Shown: in pieces, positions 9,526-20,691 of the stretch | How positions within the stretch are numbered: position 1 is the first letter of the stretch | Layout of the letters: every line of letters starts with the position of its first letter | NCBI GenBank assembly: GCA_024280455.1 | Contig: JAJRQC010000133.1 | Coordinates: forward strand, 1-48,921 | DNA: 48,921 nucleotides | DNA from: Deltaproteobacteria bacterium | GTDB taxonomy: Bacteria; Desulfobacterota; Desulfobulbia; Desulfobulbales; Desulfobulbaceae | Direction of reading: 5' to 3' | Program-made: the position numbers and the translations under genes | The notes under the pieces: generated by a model | The model's database searches: none | What the model saw: only the letters and a program-made list of their open reading frames with translations | Told to the model about the DNA's origin: nothing

Positions 9526-10986
9526 ATGTACATGAGCTCTACATTGTCCGGATCTGAACGAACATTTTTAGACCAGGTTTCCAAATCGATTTTTGCCAAC
9601 CCCTTTTGCGGAGAACGACACCTTTCCGACTGTCGGCTGACCGGGCTCTCCGAACAGAAGTCGCCAAAAAGCGTGCTCAAGGCTGCAGTCGGCACGGTTC
9701 GCTCAAAAGTGGAACAACTGGCCCGGGATAACAGGGCCACCCTCGCCGCCTATCAGGCCGGGGACCGGCAGCACATCGCCAATCTCTTTCTCTTTCACCT
9801 GTTCCACGCCTACCTTCCCGAGCTGGACCGACACATTCTGGCCCAACAGGAAACCATGGTGGCCATCCCTCTGCACTGCGGAGAACAGCTGGAAATGGAA
9901 CTGAAAAAATTTGGCTTTTCCAGACCGGACACGGAGAAATACATCGCCCTCTTCTTTCAGATGCGAAGGGCTTTTTACTTTATCAACACCAGCCTGATCG
10001 GCTGCAGTCCCTGCATGGAGGAACTGCGGGCCCGGCTCTGGAACACGGTCTTCACCCACGACATCGGCCTGTACGTTCAAACGCTCTGGAACAGGCTCGA
10101 AGACTTCTCAACCCTGCTCCTTGGGAAAACCGGAACCGGCAAAGGGCTGGCCGCTGCCGCCATCGGCCGCTCGGGATTCACCCCCTATACCAGCAAAACC
10201 CACCATTTCACCATCAGTTTCACCAGGGCCTTTCTCTCCATCAATCTGTGCCAGTTCCCGGAACAGTTGATCGAGTCTGAGCTGTTCGGCCACGCCCGCG
10301 GCTCCTTTACCGGCGCGGTCCGTGACCATGAGGGCATCTTTGCCCGTTCAAGCACCCATGGCGCCGTCTTTCTCGACGAAATCGGCGAGGTCTCCATTCC
10401 GACCCAGATCAAACTGCTGCGCATCCTGCAGGAACGCAGATTTTCACCGGTAGGCAGCAGCAAAGAGCATCACTTTGACGGCCGCATCATCGGTGCCACC
10501 AATCAGGATCTGGACCGGCTGATGCATACAGGTAAATTCAGGGAAGATTTTTATTTTCGCCTCTGCACGGATGTGCTGACCATCCCGTCACTGAGCCGGA
10601 GGATAGCCGAGGACCGGAGAGAACTGCGCCTTCTGAGCAGTCATCTGCTGGGAAAAATTACCGGACAGACCTCTGAATCCCTGCAGGAACAAATGTATAC
10701 GGAGTTGCGCAAACCGGCTCACCGCGGATACAACTGGCCGGGCAACGTCCGTGAACTGGAACAGGCTATTCGCAGAATTCTCCTGCACGGCACCTTCAGT
10801 CGACCGGAAATACCGCGGCGGGAAACAAAGCTGGAAAATAATCTACTCAGGCAGCAGTACAGTGTGGCCGAGTTGACCAGGCGCTACTGCACCCTCCTTT
10901 TTGAAAAACACGGCACCCTGCAGGCGGTCGCCCGGATCACCGGCCTGGACAGGCGAACGGTGAAAAAATATATTGAAACAGAATAA
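9526..10986 (+). CDS. Sigma-54-dependent transcriptional activator without receiver domain
   Basis: A 486-residue enhancer-binding protein. The first 190 residues match no domain I recognise and contain cysteines at 28, 36, 118, 160 and 163 (the last pair as C-S-P-C). The AAA+ core follows: Walker A GKTGTGKG (200-207), the sigma-54 contact loop as GSFTGA instead of the usual GAFTGA, Walker B VFLDEIGE, and the RDDFYFRL-like REDFYFRL. NWPGNVRELEQAI and a C-terminal helix-turn-helix (AVARITGLDRRTVKKYI) complete it. Loss of a receiver domain suggests direct sensing by the N-terminal part. Targets are unknown: no -24/-12 promoter was seen ahead of the divergent lplT-like gene. Confidence 0.88.
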   Translation: MYMSSTLSGSERTFLDQVSKSIFANPFCGERHLSDCRLTGLSEQKSPKSVLKAAVGTVRSKVEQLARDNRATLAAYQAGDRQHIANLFLFHLFHAYLPELDRHILAQQETMVAIPLHCGEQLEMELKKFGFSRPDTEKYIALFFQMRRAFYFINTSLIGCSPCMEELRARLWNTVFTHDIGLYVQTLWNRLEDFSTLLLGKTGTGKGLAAAAIGRSGFTPYTSKTHHFTISFTRAFLSINLCQFPEQLIESELFGHARGSFTGAVRDHEGIFARSSTHGAVFLDEIGEVSIPTQIKLLRILQERRFSPVGSSKEHHFDGRIIGATNQDLDRLMHTGKFREDFYFRLCTDVLTIPSLSRRIAEDRRELRLLSSHLLGKITGQTSESLQEQMYTELRKPAHRGYNWPGNVRELEQAIRRILLHGTFSRPEIPRRETKLENNLLRQQYSVAELTRRYCTLLFEKHGTLQAVARITGLDRRTVKKYIETE

Positions 10987-11201
10987 GAAAAACGGCCATA
11001 CCCTGCAGCCATAACAATGACACCGCTTCGCGGATATGAAAACAGCCTGAGAGAACAATAGCCATTCCAATACGTGTCAGAATTCCAGGACGTTTACGCC
11101 GCAATGCATTTTCGACCTGCAGATCCGAAAGCCATCAATATCCAAGTCCACCATTCCTCGGAGAACCGGTCAGGTAGCGAAGCTTTGTCGCGTTGCAGCG
11201 G

Positions 11202-11837
11202 CTACAGGATTCGCGCAAAACCGCTGTAAAAAAAATACCCGGAAAAGAGGACCAGAAAAGACGCACAGCAGCCAATCAGCCTCCGGTAAAAAACATCGCT
11301 GAAAAACCGCCTTCCCCGGGCCACTCCGAAGGAGATCAGGGTATACCAGGCCAGATCAGCCAGGATGTGGCCAAGGAAGAAAACCATAACCCCGACGATC
11401 CCGAAGGTAACCGAATATACAACATAGCCGAGCCCGATAGATGCCCACCACAGGAGCCAGTAAGGATTTGCCAGACTGAACAGGATGCCGGCAAGGACCA
11501 GGTTTCTGCTTTTTGTATCACCAGTATCGAAATCGAGGCGAAGACCGGACAGGCTTCTGAGCATGGAAAACCCCATCCACAACAGGAGAGCGCCGCCGAC
11601 CAGTGATATAAAAATGAAAACATCATTGCGCTGCAGCAGTGGTGCCGCCCCCAGAAGCAGAGCGGTTATCAGCACAAGCTCAAGAAGACCATGCCCAAAA
11701 ATCATCAGGGGCCCGGCAATGGCTCCCCGGCGCGAGCTCTCGCTCACCGTGACCGTCAGCAGGGGACCGGGCATCAAAGCGCCGGATAATGCTATTAAAA
11801 AAGATGTGCAAAATATTGTAATAAGGGCAATTGTCAT
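11202..11837 (-). CDS. LysE/RhtB family exporter
   Basis: A 211-residue membrane protein with about six hydrophobic segments. The N-terminal GALMPGPLLTVTVSESSRRG is the LysE/RhtB-family signature (MPGP followed by a small-residue helix). NPYWLLWWASIG in the middle is also typical. Family members export amino acids or related small molecules; the substrate is not determinable. It starts 24 bases after the stop of the rhodanese-ferritin gene, so the two are probably co-transcribed. Confidence 0.85.
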   Translation of the reverse strand: MTIALITIFCTSFLIALSGALMPGPLLTVTVSESSRRGAIAGPLMIFGHGLLELVLITALLLGAAPLLQRNDVFIFISLVGGALLLWMGFSMLRSLSGLRLDFDTGDTKSRNLVLAGILFSLANPYWLLWWASIGLGYVVYSVTFGIVGVMVFFLGHILADLAWYTLISFGVARGRRFFSDVFYRRLIGCCASFLVLFSGYFFYSGFARIL

Positions 11838-11861
11838 TTCTGCTCCGTTCAGGCCGACCCG

Positions 11862-12692
11862 TCAGCCATTCTCGCAGAACTGCAGGGCCTCAGCGGCTAT
11901 GCGCATGTGTTCTTTTTCAGCCTGGGCAATGGCCAGAAAGGCCTCCGCCATCTTAGGTTCCGTAAAATAATCGGCCATATTACGATACAGATCATAAGCC
12001 GCATACTCAATGGTGATGGCCATCTCGATAATATCCAGGCAGGACTCATCGCCGGAGGCATCGAGTATCCGCGTCATCGCCTCAAGGCTCTTTCCGCCCT
12101 CTATCACCTCACCGGGCAAAGAGCCGTAGAGCTCTTCAAAGGGTGGCGCCCCGGAGGCCTCCTGCCGGTAGAATGTATAGATCAACCGGGCATGCCCCTC
12201 TTCGGCCCTGGCCAGCAGGTCAATAAAACGGGCAAATCCCTGTTCCCGGTGGCGGACAAGTACCTTCGTATAAAAGAGTTCAGCTCCACGTTCCAGGTCC
12301 ATGGCCTGGAGGAAGATATCCGCCGGATCGCCCTGGAGTGGAAAAATCCGCATCCTGGGGAAATCGGGCAGGGTATAATCATTCCAGGAGAGTATTCCCC
12401 CGCTCAAATTGAAAATTTCCGTCTCAAAGTAGGGCCGGGAACCGGCAAACAGGGACGCCACCTGCGACCGTTTGCCCGATCGTCAGTAAAAAATAATATC
12501 CCGGTCCAGCGGCAGTTCACTCAGGCGGGCGGACAACTCTCCCACCGGCATAAGACAGGCTCCGGGGATATGGCCTTTCCTATATTCTTTAGGGTTGCGG
12601 ACATCGACCAGCAGGTAGTCTTCTTCCTTATGCGTCCGCATATATTCACGTAATTCATCGGCCGTAACATTTGTGAACTCTTTTCGTCCCAT
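11862..12692 (-). CDS. Selenocysteine-containing rhodanese-ferritin fusion protein
   Basis: Read through one in-frame TGA, this is a 276-residue protein. Residues about 5-100 form a rhodanese domain: YLLVDVRNPKEYRKGHIPGA, then DIIFY-U-RSGKRSQVA, then FNLSGGILSW. The TGA (12485-12483, residue 70) falls exactly on the catalytic cysteine of the C-R-S-G-x-R loop. Residues about 115-275 form a rubrerythrin-like diiron domain with two E-x-x-H motifs (EEGH, EKEH) and further glutamates in LERGAELF and ITIEYAAYDLY. Both halves are well preserved, in the same frame, and a SECIS-like hairpin follows the TGA, so selenocysteine insertion is far likelier than a nonsense mutation. Start at 12692 has AGGAG upstream. 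Likely role: sulfur or selenium transfer, or peroxide/persulfide detoxification. Conventional gene callers would split it at 12461/12483. Confidence 0.88.
12444..12476 (-). promoter_or_regulatory. Bacterial SECIS-like stem-loop
   Basis: On the minus strand, the 17-base apical hairpin GGTCGCAGGTGGCGTCC (12469-12453) pairs GG-U-CGC with GCG-U-CC around loop AGGUG, with a U-U mismatch in the stem. The E. coli fdhF SECIS apical hairpin (established knowledge) has the same GGU-x-GC-AGGU layout with a bulged U. A lower stem GGCAAAC (12476-12470) pairs with GTTTGCC (12450-12444). The loop begins 19 bases after the TGA, close to the known spacing. Confidence 0.8.
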
Positions 12693-12732
12693 ATCTCCTC
12701 CCCGGTCTTCCCGTACATAACATGGGCCAATA

Positions 12733-12769
12733 TTCGACAACTCCCGCATACCCTCGACAATTTTGTCGA
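12733..12769 (+). promoter_or_regulatory. Putative enhancer (activator-binding) site
   Basis: An inverted repeat TCGACAA (12754-12760), TT, TTGTCGA (12763-12769), with a further half-site TTCGACAA at 12733-12740. It lies about 85-120 bases upstream of the -24/-12 promoter at 12855. That is the usual place for a sigma-54 activator site, and the operon encodes an NtrC-type regulator that could bind it. Confidence 0.55.
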
Positions 12770-12854
12770 AGCAAAATGGTTGCAGGCAGTTTCTTTTCAC
12801 TAGAAATACCAATAATCCTTGTAAAATCAAGCCATTTCTTTTTCGTCAACCGAC

Positions 12855-12870
12855 TGGCACAGATCATGCT
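12855..12870 (+). promoter_or_regulatory. Sigma-54 (-24/-12) promoter
   Basis: TGGCACAGATCATGCT: the invariant GG and GC are 10 bases apart, and 9 of the 10 most conserved consensus positions (TGGCAC, TGCT) match. The predicted transcript starts near 12882 and gives a leader of about 37 bases to the gene at 12919. Confidence 0.75.
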
Positions 12871-12918
12871 TTTTATGCTATACATATTTTATCAATCTAT
12901 TTAATGGAGATTGCCGCA

Positions 12919-13749
12919 ATGAACATGCGTAAAATCACTTCCCTCACCATGCTGATTTCTTTTGTCCTGGAGCTGGTGACCAGTGTCATCCTCTATATCG
13001 TACCCCAGGGCCGGGTGGCCTACTGGTCGGACTGGCGCCTGTGGGGACTGACCAAAAGCCAGTGGGGCGATCTGCACATCAACCTGGGTATTCTTTTCCT
13101 GCTGGCTGCTTTTCTGCACCTGTTCTACAACTGGAAACCCATGATTGCCTATATGAAGAACAAGGCAAAAGAGCTTAAAGTTTTTACCGCTGATTTCAAT
13201 ATCGCTCTGATAGTATCCGTAATAGTTTGCCTCGGCACATTCTTCAACATCCCGCCCATGTCCACAGTGCTGGACTTCAGCGAATCGATCAAGGATGCCG
13301 CAGCGAAGCAGTACGGTGAGCCGCCCTATGGCCACGCCGAACTCTCCTCGCTCAAACTCTTTGCCAGGAAAACAGATCTGGATCTGGAGGCTGCTAAAAC
13401 ATTGCTCAACGAGGCCGGTATCAAAGGGGTTGACGATCAGATCACCCTGGGTGAGCTGGCAAAAATCAACCAGACCACTCCCAAGGCGCTCTTTGCAATC
13501 ATGAACCCGGCCCTGGTCAAAAATGACGGTGAGGGTTCCTTTCCCGACTCACCGCCGTCCGGTTTCGGGCACAAGACCCTGGCTGAAATCTGCTCCACCT
13601 ATACCCTGAACATACCGACCGTTATCCGTGACCTGGCCGGGAAAGGGATCACGGCCAGACCGGAACAAACCTTTAAAGAAATAGCAGCGGACAATGACAC
13701 TGATCCGCATGCCCTGTTCGAGGTCCTGCATGGGCTGGTGGTTCAGTAA
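12919..13749 (+). CDS. DUF4405 membrane protein with C-terminal helical repeats
   Basis: About 276 residues. The N-terminal part has three to four membrane helices with histidines in WGDLHINLG and AFLHLFYNW, as in DUF4405 proteins, which resemble small cytochrome b-like membrane domains; haem binding is a guess. The C-terminal ~150 residues contain two related helical repeats: LFARKTDLDLEAAKTLLNEAGI...LGELAKINQTTPKALFAIM and AEICSTYTLNIPTVIRDLAGKGI...FKEIAADNDTDPHALFEVL. Start at 12919 fits GGAG 9 bases upstream. It is the first gene behind the sigma-54 promoter, followed by a secreted protein, a sensor kinase and its regulator, and may be part of the sensed or controlled envelope function. 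Confidence 0.8.
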   Translation: MNMRKITSLTMLISFVLELVTSVILYIVPQGRVAYWSDWRLWGLTKSQWGDLHINLGILFLLAAFLHLFYNWKPMIAYMKNKAKELKVFTADFNIALIVSVIVCLGTFFNIPPMSTVLDFSESIKDAAAKQYGEPPYGHAELSSLKLFARKTDLDLEAAKTLLNEAGIKGVDDQITLGELAKINQTTPKALFAIMNPALVKNDGEGSFPDSPPSGFGHKTLAEICSTYTLNIPTVIRDLAGKGITARPEQTFKEIAADNDTDPHALFEVLHGLVVQ

Positions 13750-14140
13750 ACACTGTACGCTCTTCTTCTTTCTGCTCCTTGCCGGACTGCCACTTGCGTG
13801 TCCGGCCGGGGCCCAGACACTCGTCGGCACAGTTGTGTCTGCGGGAGAGACACAGTTTGTTTTCCGGCAGACACCAAAACAGGGAACAGAGGAGGCGATG
13901 CCTGAGATCCAGGTAGTCTTTCTCCCCGCATCCCGGAGAGGGCCGTTTTCAGGCGGACCCGCTTTTCCTCGCTGCGTGCGTAAAGGCAGGACTGTTCGGA
14001 TCAGCGGCTCTTTTGATCCGGAAAAACACATCTTCCTGGCCCGGACAATACATGGCGTTCCCGGCCCGGGAAAACATCATGATCCCACCGGGGTCCGGGC
14101 AAGGCTGGGTCGCTGTCGGCATACTTCGGGATCGCCATGA
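13730..14140 (+). CDS. Small secreted protein of unknown function
   Basis: About 136 residues. The start at 13730 gives a good signal peptide (HCTLFFFLLLAGLPLACPAGAQ), whereas the longer frame to 13694 buries it. The mature part contains VGTVVSAGETQFVFRQTP and later GRTVRISGSFDPEKHIFLARTI, alternating beta-strand patterns reminiscent of an OB-fold; this is weak. It overlaps the end of the DUF4405 gene and, by ATGA, the kinase gene start, so it is translationally coupled within the operon. Function not recognised. Confidence 0.7.
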   Translation: MGWWFSKHCTLFFFLLLAGLPLACPAGAQTLVGTVVSAGETQFVFRQTPKQGTEEAMPEIQVVFLPASRRGPFSGGPAFPRCVRKGRTVRISGSFDPEKHIFLARTIHGVPGPGKHHDPTGVRARLGRCRHTSGSP

Positions 14141-17132: not shown

Positions 17133-18266
17133 ATGACACCGGCTATTTTTTTTATTGTTACAGTCAATCTTGCGCTCGGGGTTGCTGCAGGAGCAGTGAT
17201 GTATCGTGCCGATTTCTGCGTTGCCGGCACCTTTCGCGATTTTTTTCTGTTCAGGAAAACGGTCATGCTTCGCGCCCTGCTGCTGCTGATCGTTGGAACC
17301 ATGGTCCTGTTTGAAATTCTTCGCCAACTCAGTTTCCTCCCCCTCTATCCTTTTCCCCTGCTGGGCTCACCTTCTCTGGCCAACGTTGCCGGTGGCATAC
17401 TTTTCGGCATAGGCATGGTAACGGCCGGCGGATGCGTTGTCGGGACCCTGTACAAGATGGGAGGTGGAAGCGTCATCAGTGCCACCGCCTTTATCGGGCT
17501 CATTGCCGGCAGCGGTATATATGCAGAGATCCATCCGTGGTGGAGCGGCATCGTCAAGGAGTTCACCTTTTTCAAGGGCCACCTCACCCTTCCACAGGCA
17601 ATTGGCTGCAGTCCAGCCCTCATCCTCATACCGCTGATTCTGGTTTCCGTATTTTTTTTCATGCGCTGGCAGAAACAAAATAAATGGCACCTGACCTCGT
17701 ATGTCGAGGGGTACATTCAACCCTGGAGAGCAGCCCTCTATCTTGCCCTGCTCGGAACACTCTCCTACCTTCTTGTGGGCATGCCTTTCGGGATCACCAC
17801 TGCCTATGCCAAAGCTGCGGCCTATCTTACAAAACTCGTTGCCCCGGCCCATGTAGCACAAACAGCCTTTTACAAAGCGGTGCCGCTTGACTATTCAGCC
17901 CCCATCATCCATGTCCAACTCCTTGGCGGGGCCGGTCCCGTTGTCGATGCCATAACCTATATCCAGTTTCCGCTTATTGTCGGCATTATTCTCGGGGCAA
18001 TGATCGCCGCCCTCCGACTTGGTGAATTCAAAGTCTATGATCGGGTCCCTGCACGTCAGTACGTCTCAGCTCTTGCAGGAGGCGTTATTCTGGCCCTGGG
18101 ATCGAGAATGACGCCAGGATGTAATATCTGGCACCTGTTCGGCGGCCTGCCGATCCTGAACATGCAGAGTCTGCTATTTCTGGCCGGCCTCGTCCCCGGA
18201 TCCTATATCGGCAGCAAGATTCTCGTCCACGTTGTCCTTTCAGCAGGAGCAAAGGCTACACCATGA
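17133..18266 (+). CDS. YeeE/YedE-family sulfur (thiosulfate) uptake permease, TsuA-like
   Basis: A 377-residue membrane protein with about nine to ten hydrophobic segments. Three family cysteines are present in their expected settings: C29 in RADFCVAG, C101 in GGCVVGTLYKMGGGS, and C330 in MTPGCNIWHLFGG. In E. coli TsuA (YeeE) the equivalent cysteines relay thiosulfate. The TusA-like gene that overlaps its end matches the TsuA-TsuB pairing. Some relatives are annotated as selenium transporters (YedE); the presence of a selenoprotein gene 4 kb away makes that alternative worth noting, but substrate cannot be told from sequence. Confidence 0.87.
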   Translation: MTPAIFFIVTVNLALGVAAGAVMYRADFCVAGTFRDFFLFRKTVMLRALLLLIVGTMVLFEILRQLSFLPLYPFPLLGSPSLANVAGGILFGIGMVTAGGCVVGTLYKMGGGSVISATAFIGLIAGSGIYAEIHPWWSGIVKEFTFFKGHLTLPQAIGCSPALILIPLILVSVFFFMRWQKQNKWHLTSYVEGYIQPWRAALYLALLGTLSYLLVGMPFGITTAYAKAAAYLTKLVAPAHVAQTAFYKAVPLDYSAPIIHVQLLGGAGPVVDAITYIQFPLIVGIILGAMIAALRLGEFKVYDRVPARQYVSALAGGVILALGSRMTPGCNIWHLFGGLPILNMQSLLFLAGLVPGSYIGSKILVHVVLSAGAKATP

Positions 18267-18535
18267 AAAACAACCAACCTGCAAACATAATTGTTCATGA
18301 TATCCGGGGACAGATCTGTCCCTCCTGCCTGCTGTACACCCTGCGCGAAATTAACAGACAAAAAGCGGCCTTCAAAGAGGGCAACACCCGGATAATTATT
18401 AAAACCGATAACCGGGATGCAACGACTACTATTCCAGATGCCGTCTCAAGTATGGGATATGAGTGCCTGGTTGAGAAAAAAAAGGGCTACTACGAACTGG
18501 TAATAGTGCCGCATAGAAAAAAAACAATCCATTGA
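18263..18535 (+). CDS. TusA/SirA-like sulfur carrier protein (TsuB-like)
   Basis: A 90-residue protein of the TusA/SirA/YeeD fold. The motif is DIRGQICPSCLLYTLREI: the carrier cysteine C19 is kept, while the usual CPxP is CPSC, giving a second cysteine at C22. The C-terminal strand NRDATTTIPDAVSSMGYECLVE fits the family. It would accept sulfur (or selenium) imported by the permease encoded immediately upstream, with which it overlaps by four bases (ATGA). It overlaps the TTG frame of the kinase gene at its end. Confidence 0.85.
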   Translation: MKNNQPANIIVHDIRGQICPSCLLYTLREINRQKAAFKEGNTRIIIKTDNRDATTTIPDAVSSMGYECLVEKKKGYYELVIVPHRKKTIH

Positions 18536-18552
18536 CTGGAAACTGTAAGCTA

Positions 18553-20691
18553 ATGGCAGTAGACAAATACAATACCCTTTCCATTGAAGCCCTGCAGGAA
18601 CGGCTGCTTCTTGCCGATGAAGAAAACCGCCGTCTTGAGGAAAAGCACAGTGAATCAACAAGGTATATCAGGGACAGGGTTGACCAGCTCCTGAGAGTCA
18701 TCGGGACAATTCCTCTCAAGCCGGACGAACTTGACGATGAAACCCTGATCGAGCTCGACCCGATCGGCATTATCAGTGATACCTTTGTCCGGATTCTCGA
18801 ACATCAGAAAGAGACCAACCTTAACCTGGAAACCGCAAAGAATGACATTGAGGCAATATTCAACTCGGTAGGCGAAGGGATCCAGGTCCTCAACACCAGG
18901 GGCGAGATAATTGCCTATAATAAAAAGATGAGGAATCTTTTTATTGTCGATGAGCAGGAAGTGCTTGGCAAGCTGTGCAGCGAAACGGTCTGCGGGCGGG
19001 AAACCCTTGCAAAAAACTGCCTTTTCAGAATGGTTAGAGACGGAAAAAAGAGCATGCGGATCCGCTCCTGGCAGTGTCGCGACAGGTTTTATGAGATTAT
19101 CGGAACTCCTGTGTTTGATAACGACGGGGTTTTGCAGCGGGTTGTTATCCTGTACCTGGACATTACCCGAAGAAAAAAATACGAGAAGGCGCTGCGGGAC
19201 AGTGAGGATCGTTTCCGGGATCTTTTTGAGAATGCCACGGATATGCTGCAGAGCATAGACCCCGATGGAAAGATCCTGCTGGTCAATAAGGCCTGGCGGG
19301 AAACCCTGGAATACACAGAGGAAGAGGTGGACGGCCGGAACATATTCGACTTTCTCCACCCTGATTTCAAAGTGGACTGTATGAATAATTTCAAACAGAT
19401 CCTCCGGGATGGACGGGAGTTTACCTGTCAGACCGTATTCCTGAGCAAAACCGGTAAAGAAATTCATGTGGACGGAAGAATCAACTGCAGGCTGATTGAT
19501 GGAAAGCCCGTTGTCCTGCGCAGCCTTTACCGTGACGTAACGGAAAAACTGAAAATGGAGGAAGAACTGCGGCGAACCCAGAAACTTGAGTCAATCGGTA
19601 TCCTGGCCGGCGGCATCGCCCATGACTTCAACAATCTCCTGACCGGGATCCTCGGCAACATACTGCTGGCCCAGCTCAAGGCACCTGAGGGCGATCTGGC
19701 CCAACTCTTGAAAAACACTGAAAACGCCGCCCACCGGGCCCAGGAACTGACCAGACAGCTGTTGACGTTTTCCAAGGGCGGGGCTCCGGTCAAGGAAACC
19801 GCCTCCGTGATCGATATCGTCAAGGAAGTCGTCTCCTTCACCCTCAGCGGCTCAAATACGAAATGGATCCTGGAGACGGAAGGAACCATCAGCCCTGTTG
19901 ATGTCGACACCGGTCAATTCAGCCAGGTTATTGAAAACCTGATCATTAACAGTGACCAGTCCATGCCCGATGGCGGAGTCATCACCATCAGAATTCATAA
20001 TTATACCCGGGATGAACAATCACCAGAGCCCCTTGCCGGATGCAGATACGTTAAGATTGACATCCATGACCAGGGGGTAGGTATTGCCGAGAAATACCTG
20101 CCGAGAATATTCGACCCCTATTTTACCACCAAAAAAAGCGGGAGCGGACTCGGCCTTGCCACGGCCTATTCAACAATCCGCAGGCACAAGGGATTACTCA
20201 CCGTTTATTCCGAGCCGGGCCAAGGTACGACCATGAGCATCTACCTGCCGGCGTCGAAGGGAGAACTACCCACAGATCAAACTGCTGCTCCGGAGATGCC
20301 GAGGGGGAGCGGTAAAATACTCATCATGGATGATGACGAGGTGGTGCGGCAGGTCGGGACGAAAATGTTGAATCTACTGGGCTATGAAGTGGTCGAATCA
20401 AGGGATGGTGAGGAAGCCCTGGAAAAATATCGGCAGGCACTACAGTCCCGCACACCGTTTGATCTGGTCATTCTCGATCTGACTGTTCCCGGAGGAATGG
20501 GCGGCAAGGAGACCATCGCCGGACTCCGGGAAATGGATCCGGAGGTAAAGGCCATTGTATCCAGCGGCTATAGCCATGACCCGATCATGGCCGACTTTCG
20601 CAACTACGGATTTTCAGGAGTAATCCCCAAGCCATACTCTTTTGAAAAGCTGGGCTCAACAGTCCGTTCACTTATCTCAAGCAAAGGATAA
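18553..20691 (+). CDS. PAS-PAS hybrid histidine kinase with C-terminal receiver
   Basis: About 712 residues, no membrane segment, so cytoplasmic. A helical N-terminal part is followed by PAS1 (IEAIFNSVGEGIQVLNTRGEI), which contains three close cysteines in LCSETVCGRETLAKNC, and PAS2 (FRDLFENATDMLQSIDPDGKI). The kinase core has H-box GGIAHDFNNLLTGILGN, an N-box variant ENLIINSDQSMPDGG, and DPYFTTKKSGSGLGLATAYS. The receiver domain ILIMDDDE carries the phosphorylated aspartate in LVILDLTVPGGMGG. Start at ATG 18553 is preferred over TTG 18532. It is in the sulfur uptake operon, so sensing of sulfur species through PAS1 cysteines is a reasonable inference. No dedicated output regulator is adjacent. 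Confidence 0.88.
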   Translation: MAVDKYNTLSIEALQERLLLADEENRRLEEKHSESTRYIRDRVDQLLRVIGTIPLKPDELDDETLIELDPIGIISDTFVRILEHQKETNLNLETAKNDIEAIFNSVGEGIQVLNTRGEIIAYNKKMRNLFIVDEQEVLGKLCSETVCGRETLAKNCLFRMVRDGKKSMRIRSWQCRDRFYEIIGTPVFDNDGVLQRVVILYLDITRRKKYEKALRDSEDRFRDLFENATDMLQSIDPDGKILLVNKAWRETLEYTEEEVDGRNIFDFLHPDFKVDCMNNFKQILRDGREFTCQTVFLSKTGKEIHVDGRINCRLIDGKPVVLRSLYRDVTEKLKMEEELRRTQKLESIGILAGGIAHDFNNLLTGILGNILLAQLKAPEGDLAQLLKNTENAAHRAQELTRQLLTFSKGGAPVKETASVIDIVKEVVSFTLSGSNTKWILETEGTISPVDVDTGQFSQVIENLIINSDQSMPDGGVITIRIHNYTRDEQSPEPLAGCRYVKIDIHDQGVGIAEKYLPRIFDPYFTTKKSGSGLGLATAYSTIRRHKGLLTVYSEPGQGTTMSIYLPASKGELPTDQTAAPEMPRGSGKILIMDDDEVVRQVGTKMLNLLGYEVVESRDGEEALEKYRQALQSRTPFDLVILDLTVPGGMGGKETIAGLREMDPEVKAIVSSGYSHDPIMADFRNYGFSGVIPKPYSFEKLGSTVRSLISSKG

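Follow-up and report, generated by a model that had tools for sequence, protein, structure and literature searches.

We find that a minus-strand gene in the window (the whole analysed stretch of 48,921 nt) is predicted to encode a rhodanese with selenocysteine (Sec) at its catalytic position, fused to a rubrerythrin/ferritin-like diiron domain (Table 1). The Sec reading of residue 70 is derived from features that can be seen in sequence, namely the position of an in-frame TGA, the exchange between Sec and Cys among relatives, a conserved hairpin, the Sec machinery of the genome, the predicted folds and the set of metal ligands. Given these, the TGA should almost certainly be decoded as Sec. 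SelB, directed by a bSECIS just past the UGA, would insert Sec at residue 70, the nucleophile position, and translation would continue into the C-terminal rubrerythrin/ferritin-like diiron domain; that the product is such a single selenoprotein of 276 residues appears very probable. Rhodaneses containing Sec are already known, and the ferritin-like diiron partner appears to be the new element relative to the literature searched.

Table 1. Features of the fusion gene and its divergent neighbour in the window
Feature	Position	Strand	Description
Sec-rhodanese/rubrerythrin-like fusion gene	11862..12692	-	276 aa, TGA70 read as Sec (predicted); full-length homologues
Sec codon TGA, residue 70 (predicted)	12483..12485	-	catalytic position of the rhodanese loop FY-U-RSG-KRS
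Putative bSECIS upper stem-loop	12453..12469	-	GGUCGC-AGGUG-GCGUCC, 5/6 pairs, one U.U; register conserved in relatives
Extended hairpin with lower stem	12444..12476	-	-17.2 kcal/mol for the 37-nt stretch
Rhodanese domain, residues 4-107	12372..12683	-	Pfam, model, VIA-align
Rubrerythrin/ferritin-like domain, residues 113-276	11865..12356	-	Pfam, alignment, VIA-align
DUF4405 protein, 276 aa, divergent neighbour	12919..13749	+	PF14358, 70 bits

The in-frame TGA and the Sec/Cys exchange

The frame of the fusion gene runs from an ATG at 12692 to 11865 on the minus strand and ends with a TGA stop at 11864-11862; a ribosome-binding-like GAGGAG lies ahead of the ATG, at 12700-12695. Its 276 residues are broken by one internal TGA alone, codon 70. 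The first-pass annotation had placed this TGA (12485-12483, minus strand) exactly at the catalytic position of the rhodanese loop, and the alignment of homologues bears this out: among 71 distinct rows the column holds U in 39, C in 32 and no other residue. The catalytic-loop Cys by which membership in the rhodanese family is judged is thus replaced by TGA in the window protein and 38 further rows and is retained in 32. The motif at Sec70 is UxxG. The Pfam rhodanese profile (PF00581) scores 64.1 bits (cut-off 22.2) over residues 11-104, across the TGA. In the structure model, VIA-align finds the rhodanese at residues 2-107 (Z 16.6, rmsd 2.0, 100 residues aligned with 3tp9_B), and the best 50 of 647 Foldseek matches (E <= 10) obtained with the whole model are all rhodaneses. 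The N-terminal half is therefore assigned as a rhodanese by profile and fold, and sulfurtransferase activity is predicted for it.

The closest named record to the window protein comes from Desulfobulbus sp. HyVt-436 (83% identity). Relatives were found in 181 of the 257 genomes of the order searched (E <= 1e-25), and the 75 loci taken from this search represent the 71 distinct sequences of the alignment. They fall into a closer subfamily, set A (38 rows: 13 U and 25 C), and a distant one, set B (33 rows: 26 U and 7 C); the rows were picked with a preference for TGA carriers, so that these ratios are not frequencies. Among seven other genomes of the same genus, a match is present in five, each time with one TGA, and absent from two, which makes a local error or contamination unlikely. 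Of 395 genomes sampled across the phylum, 105 have the fusion at a stricter threshold (E <= 1e-40). We examined 40 further loci from the phylum, 18 chosen for a TGA and 22 others, locating the catalytic place by the loop motif; all 18 TGA codons are at that place and the 22 others have Cys there. The search for C or U in homologues, proposed as a check in the first-pass annotation, has thus returned both residues in each sample.

The regions on either side of the TGA had been described as conserved in one frame, and this also holds. Apart from the profile match across the codon, dN/dS ranges from 0.04 to 0.23 ahead of the TGA and from 0.09 to 0.32 behind it (NG86, four comparisons, with dS saturated in some pairs). 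The homologues have therefore kept the C-terminal domain under selection, instead of showing a plain stop followed by its loss. On a tree of 70 rows, built with the catalytic and hairpin columns removed, at least seven changes between Sec and Cys are required (six to seven over bootstrap trees, five of them forced by well-supported branches), gain and loss being indistinguishable. As a separate observation, one Cys-type member (L140, G391:C40) has a TAG in frame within the diiron domain, near residue 231 of the match.

The presence of the Sec machinery was another of the proposed checks. In the window's genome, which is 99.85% complete, the genes selA, selB, selC and selD named in the first-pass annotation have all been found. 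Its tRNA-Sec scores 72.1 bits in Rfam (gathering score 47) and is confirmed by ARAGORN with anticodon TCA; since this Rfam cut-off lets through 5 of 14 control genomes as well, it is ARAGORN and SelB that carry this point. SelB and SelA score 372 and 636 bits, respectively. SelD is represented by two near full-length matches, each with one in-frame TGA (L033 and L034; G000:C104:41338-42264 and G000:C59:176-1105), which probably are Sec-containing SelD; a third SelD frame, lacking TGA, is located on contig C33 of the same genome. Across the 66 genomes behind the rows, selA is over the cut-off in 59 and selB in 57. For the 39 genomes with a U row the counts are 34 and 33, with at least one of the two genes in 38, the exception being 63% complete; for the 27 Cys-only genomes they are 25 and 24, with at least one in 26. 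Because Cys-only genomes mostly keep selA or selB, loss of the Sec system does not account for the Cys versions. One genome (G113; two contigs, listed as 100% complete) has a TGA-containing member and selB with no selA match.

A further observation concerns gene order. Of the 35 set A genomes in which selB was matched, 14 have it 0.03-6 kb from the fusion gene in convergent orientation, and in 13 of these the fusion gene is of the Cys form. The loci are L110-L121 (genomes G069, G054, G055, G050, G049, G062, G034, G035, G064, G063, G046 and G042) together with those of G048 and G068, and 12 of the 14 regions were read. The genomes concerned are all members of a single family, and the linkage may reflect inherited order. 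In the window's genome, selB and the fusion gene are on different contigs.

A hairpin that accompanies the TGA codon

The SECIS-like hairpin reported in the first-pass annotation is present. Its upper stem-loop starts 13 nt past the UGA and has the loop AGGUG. In the extended hairpin, the loop and the inner CGC/GCG pairs are those of the conserved register, but the two G that follow have partners lying further out than in that register; the whole is not the structure of lowest energy for the 53-nt stretch. By energy, the window hairpin is not exceptional: the z-score is -0.47 for the 53-nt fold, where another structure is preferred, and 0.03 for the 28-nt fold. Synonymous recoding of the window row reached equal pairing in 8.85% of 2000 random draws. 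The 38-nt energy after TGA70 is the lowest (-17.1 kcal/mol, the next being -15.9 kcal/mol) among 60 TGAs of the window, taken from all six frames with at least 50 stop-free codons on either side. A scan of positions 10800-13700 with Rfam gave five matches, all below the gathering score of the family. It is conservation across relatives and not its own energy that makes the window hairpin convincing.

In set A, the stem of six pairs with a five-base loop 13 nt after the UGA forms 5-6 pairs in all 13 U rows and 2-4 in all 25 C rows. The set B stem, 12 nt after the UGA and with a six-base loop, behaves likewise, with 5-6 pairs in each of the 26 U rows and 2-4 in each of the seven C rows. Paired cells amount to 97.4% in set A U rows, 94.2% in set B U rows and 46.0% in set A C rows; when the set A register is slid as a control, the U rows drop from 97.4% to 31-72%. 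The set A stem is nearly invariant, so that shuffled pair counts are uninformative there. In set B, two pairs have changed on both sides among the U rows, and the covariation score of these rows was reached by none of 500 shuffles, relatedness being ignored in this comparison.

The same dependence is seen in codon usage. Ser76 is encoded by TCG in 13/13 set A U rows against 7/25 C rows, and Ala79 by GCG in 13/13 against 10/25; in set B, Ala79 is GCT in 26/26 U rows and in 0/7 C rows. Within those same U rows, variation is seen at control codons such as Gly99 and Glu134. In other words, the hairpin codons are locked only in rows with TGA. The median probability of the observed pairing under recoding is 0.0075 for set A and 0.0055 for set B U rows, compared with 0.76 and 0.69 for the respective C rows. 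Over the wider phylum the separation of U and C is imperfect: in the set B register, three of the 18 U loci have only three pairs (5-6 in a neighbouring register) and one has four, while three of the 22 C loci have five or six. One of these three C loci, L147 (G461:C164), has TGT for Cys and yet keeps all six pairs of the hairpin around the loop CGTGCT, possibly a relic SECIS of a recent change from Sec to Cys.

The bSECIS model, as described in the accessible part of PMC13188914, has a loop of 3-9 nt that carries G in its first two positions and lies at a distance of 16-37 nt from the UGA, an upper stem of 4-16 bp and a minimum free energy of -7.5 kcal/mol or lower. The window hairpin agrees with it in loop (AGGUG), spacing (19 nt from the UGA) and energy (-17.2 kcal/mol over 37 nt), the upper stem-loop by itself reaching only -6.5 kcal/mol. 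Where the fit is incomplete is the continuity of the stem, which consists of 3 bp, a U.U mismatch and 2 bp. In 11 of the 13 set A U rows (the window is among the 13), U-G takes the place of the mismatch and all six pairs are formed.

These data bear directly on whether the TGA might be an ordinary stop or a nonsense mutation, with the downstream part being a separate gene or a pseudogene remnant. Gene calling with table 11 does split the frame in two, the second ORF comprising 199 aa from a GTG at 12461. Yet the TGA occupies the Cys column in 39 distinct genes, dN/dS is far below 1 on both sides of it, one rhodanese domain scores across it, and over 71 rows the hairpin and its codons are conserved with TGA and not with Cys. 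We consider a stop extremely improbable, and on the tests of the column, of selection and of the hairpin we reject nonsense mutation, assembly error and separate genes alike.

The diiron half and the gene neighbourhood

The fusion of a rhodanese to a ferritin-like domain, noticed at first pass from the translation, is confirmed by Pfam: besides PF00581, the rubrerythrin domain PF02915 is matched above its cut-off, at 45.6 bits (cut-off 22.8), after the TGA. In a 50-row alignment, the candidate diiron ligands E134, E164, H167, E198, E229, E259 and H262 are invariant, and so is Tyr141. AlphaFold2, run on this alignment, gave two confident domains (pLDDT 91.2, pTM 0.87). VIA-align superimposed residues 113-276 on the ferritin-like bundle of 8w1d (Z 15.9, rmsd 2.6, 139 residues) and on nigerythrin 1yuz_B (Z 15.6, rmsd 3.0, 139 residues); for helical bundles, Z near 13-14 can reflect a mere common arrangement. 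This half came up in the second look with VIA-align and is absent from the best 50 of 647 Foldseek matches, and its sequence resemblance to solved structures is weak, TM1526 being the best (E 0.0018). Nevertheless, the Pfam score and the invariant candidate ligands and Tyr141 agree with a diiron fold. Iron-binding domains of this type often act on peroxide.

The resemblance to the rubrerythrin, nigerythrin and TM1526 type lies in the helical bundle and the pattern E...ExxH...E...ExxH (Z 15.6 for 1yuz_B, 14.3 for 1ryt and 14.2 for 1vjx). The window protein differs from this group in its fused N-terminal rhodanese, in having no rubredoxin domain, and in an invariant Glu198 that is part of an EGG motif and is located between long helices two and four. 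No rubredoxin family is found among Pfam matches up to E 1, and in the model the protein ends after the last helix. It is thus not a rubrerythrin in the strict sense, which includes a C-terminal rubredoxin-type Fe(SCys)4 domain, and the usual electron path of rubrerythrin is missing. Two cysteines, C218 and C273 (12041-12039 and 11876-11874, minus strand), lie in the diiron half. By hand count over 36 set A rows (two rows at contig ends left out), both are present in 30, neither in five and C218 only in one; three of the five rows with neither stop short of residue 273, and one of these three, L065, ends in Cys. Such co-occurrence is what a disulfide or redox pair would be expected to show.

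The gene neighbourhood is only partly shared. Judging by its hydrophobic stretches, we read the divergent DUF4405 neighbour as a putative membrane protein. The divergent pair recurs at 14 of 38 set A loci, in U and C forms alike, and at none of 33 set B loci; little upstream DNA is available for a few loci. In 12 regions read, the window's MFS gene is found in one and its alpha/beta-hydrolase gene in five. Deducing the function from gene context was therefore abandoned, DUF4405 being missing near 33/33 set B loci and other neighbours being shared only in part. We also discarded a second selenoprotein in the minus-strand ORFs at 13549-14031 and 12901-13335, as these are antisense to the DUF4405 gene. 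Elsewhere in the window, positions 17133-20691 of the plus strand hold genes for a YeeE-type sulfur transporter, a TusA-like protein and a PAS/histidine kinase, in this order.

Known relatives and possible function

That selenoprotein rhodaneses are known as a class, as the first-pass annotation had it, agrees with the literature in so far as the sources were accessible. A 2026 inventory (PMC13188914) lists rhodanese-like selenoproteins of forms 1-5, of which form 1 has UxxS, forms 2 and 4 UxxG and form 3 CxU, form 5 being a rhodanese/DsbD fusion. At least four rhodanese selenoprotein entries are given in PMC9312934, rhodanese or sulfurtransferase selenoprotein families appear in PMC1088965, PMC2398784 and PMC5029168, and a Sec-containing rhodanese-like domain and a sulfurtransferase are named for a deltaproteobacterium in PMC8318568. 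With UxxG and a ferritin-like partner, the window protein differs from forms 1, 3 and 5; it shares Sec and the UxxG motif with forms 2 and 4, a comparison that extends to the motif description only. The profile of form 3 (NF041203) gives 25.8 bits against a cut-off of 115, the motif being UxxG and not CxU, and that of form 5 (TsoB, NF045694; two Sec and a DsbD part) gives 23.5 bits against 805, there being one internal TGA. None of the 23 NCBIfam families listed for the window protein is above its cut-off, and none of the 15 listed for 50 members, all rhodanese-containing or ferritin-type by name, is named as this fusion. In the accessible main texts of PMC13188914, PMC9312934, PMC1088965, PMC2398784, PMC5029168, PMC8318568 and PMC1794560, the words ferritin and rubrerythrin do not occur. 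Hence, within the literature searched we found no Sec-rhodanese with a ferritin-like partner, the UxxG forms 2 and 4 having been compared by motif only, and an encapsulin paper touching on rubrerythrin, persulfide and rhodanese shows no rhodanese/rubrerythrin fusion in its accessible part.

Among the matches listed, those nearest to the rhodanese half in both sequence and fold include the solved domains of CoA-disulfide reductase-RHD (3ict), NADH-dependent persulfide reductase (3nta) and persulfide dioxygenase-rhodanese (5ve3), which, as here, join a rhodanese to a redox domain. We take their partner domains to be of flavin or MBL type and not ferritin-like, and their catalytic residue to be Cys and not Sec. 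The first-pass suggestion of a link between selenium/sulfur chemistry and peroxide handling can be given a more definite form. Sec70 would either form a selenosulfide by taking up sulfane sulfur (from persulfide, polysulfide or thiosulfate) or be oxidised by peroxide, and peroxide or O2 would be reduced at the diiron site of the same chain, the electrons being supplied by persulfide, by a thiol pair or by an external carrier. The protein is probably a redox enzyme handling persulfide or peroxide, and we lean towards functional co-operation of its two domains. Its overall role would most likely be that of a persulfide-coupled peroxide (or O2) reductase protecting the anaerobe, although a peroxidase role coupled to persulfide is offered tentatively. 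It is more speculative still, and somewhat doubtful, that the Sec70 selenosulfide (Se-S) might itself be the direct electron donor or substrate of a peroxide- or O2-reactive diiron centre, making the protein a persulfide-driven erythrin; we know of no such enzyme, and none was found in the literature searched.

Rhodaneses occur as sulfur carriers joined to many different partners, and the protein could instead be a plain Sec sulfurtransferase whose diiron domain serves as a sensor or in structure and oligomerisation, with no shared catalysis. The Cys versions in sister lineages, which indicate that selenium is not essential to the architecture, are compatible with this; however, a purely structural domain would not need seven candidate ligands and Tyr141 invariant in 50 rows, and the occurrence of the fusion in the phylum genomes sampled (105 of 395) also speaks against this reading. 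We regard such a sulfurtransferase as unlikely. Sulfur-handling and iron-binding domains in one chain might also supply sulfur and iron for the repair or assembly of Fe-S clusters damaged by oxygen or peroxide, and diiron proteins that repair Fe-S clusters do exist (RIC/YtfE). This seems improbable, since no Fe-S assembly family is present among the 21 window frames between 1040 and 27399 scanned with Pfam. It is nearly as hard to favour an oxygenase reading, in which the diiron domain would oxidise the Sec-bound persulfide in the manner of persulfide dioxygenase-rhodanese fusions: these are represented among solved structures (5ve3), and a rhodanese-PDO fusion is described for cable bacteria and their relatives in the accessible part of PMC13047784, but its PDO domain is of the MBL fold and not a ferritin-like diiron site.

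If a selenoprotein is indeed encoded here, the rhodanese selenoproteins would gain a two-domain architecture that contains iron and that standard-code ORF calling cuts in two at the TGA. On the tree, Sec and Cys have been exchanged about seven times while most hosts kept the Sec machinery, which provides a natural experiment on the benefit of selenium in a sulfur-transfer enzyme, and closely matched Sec and Cys orthologues allow the two to be compared directly.
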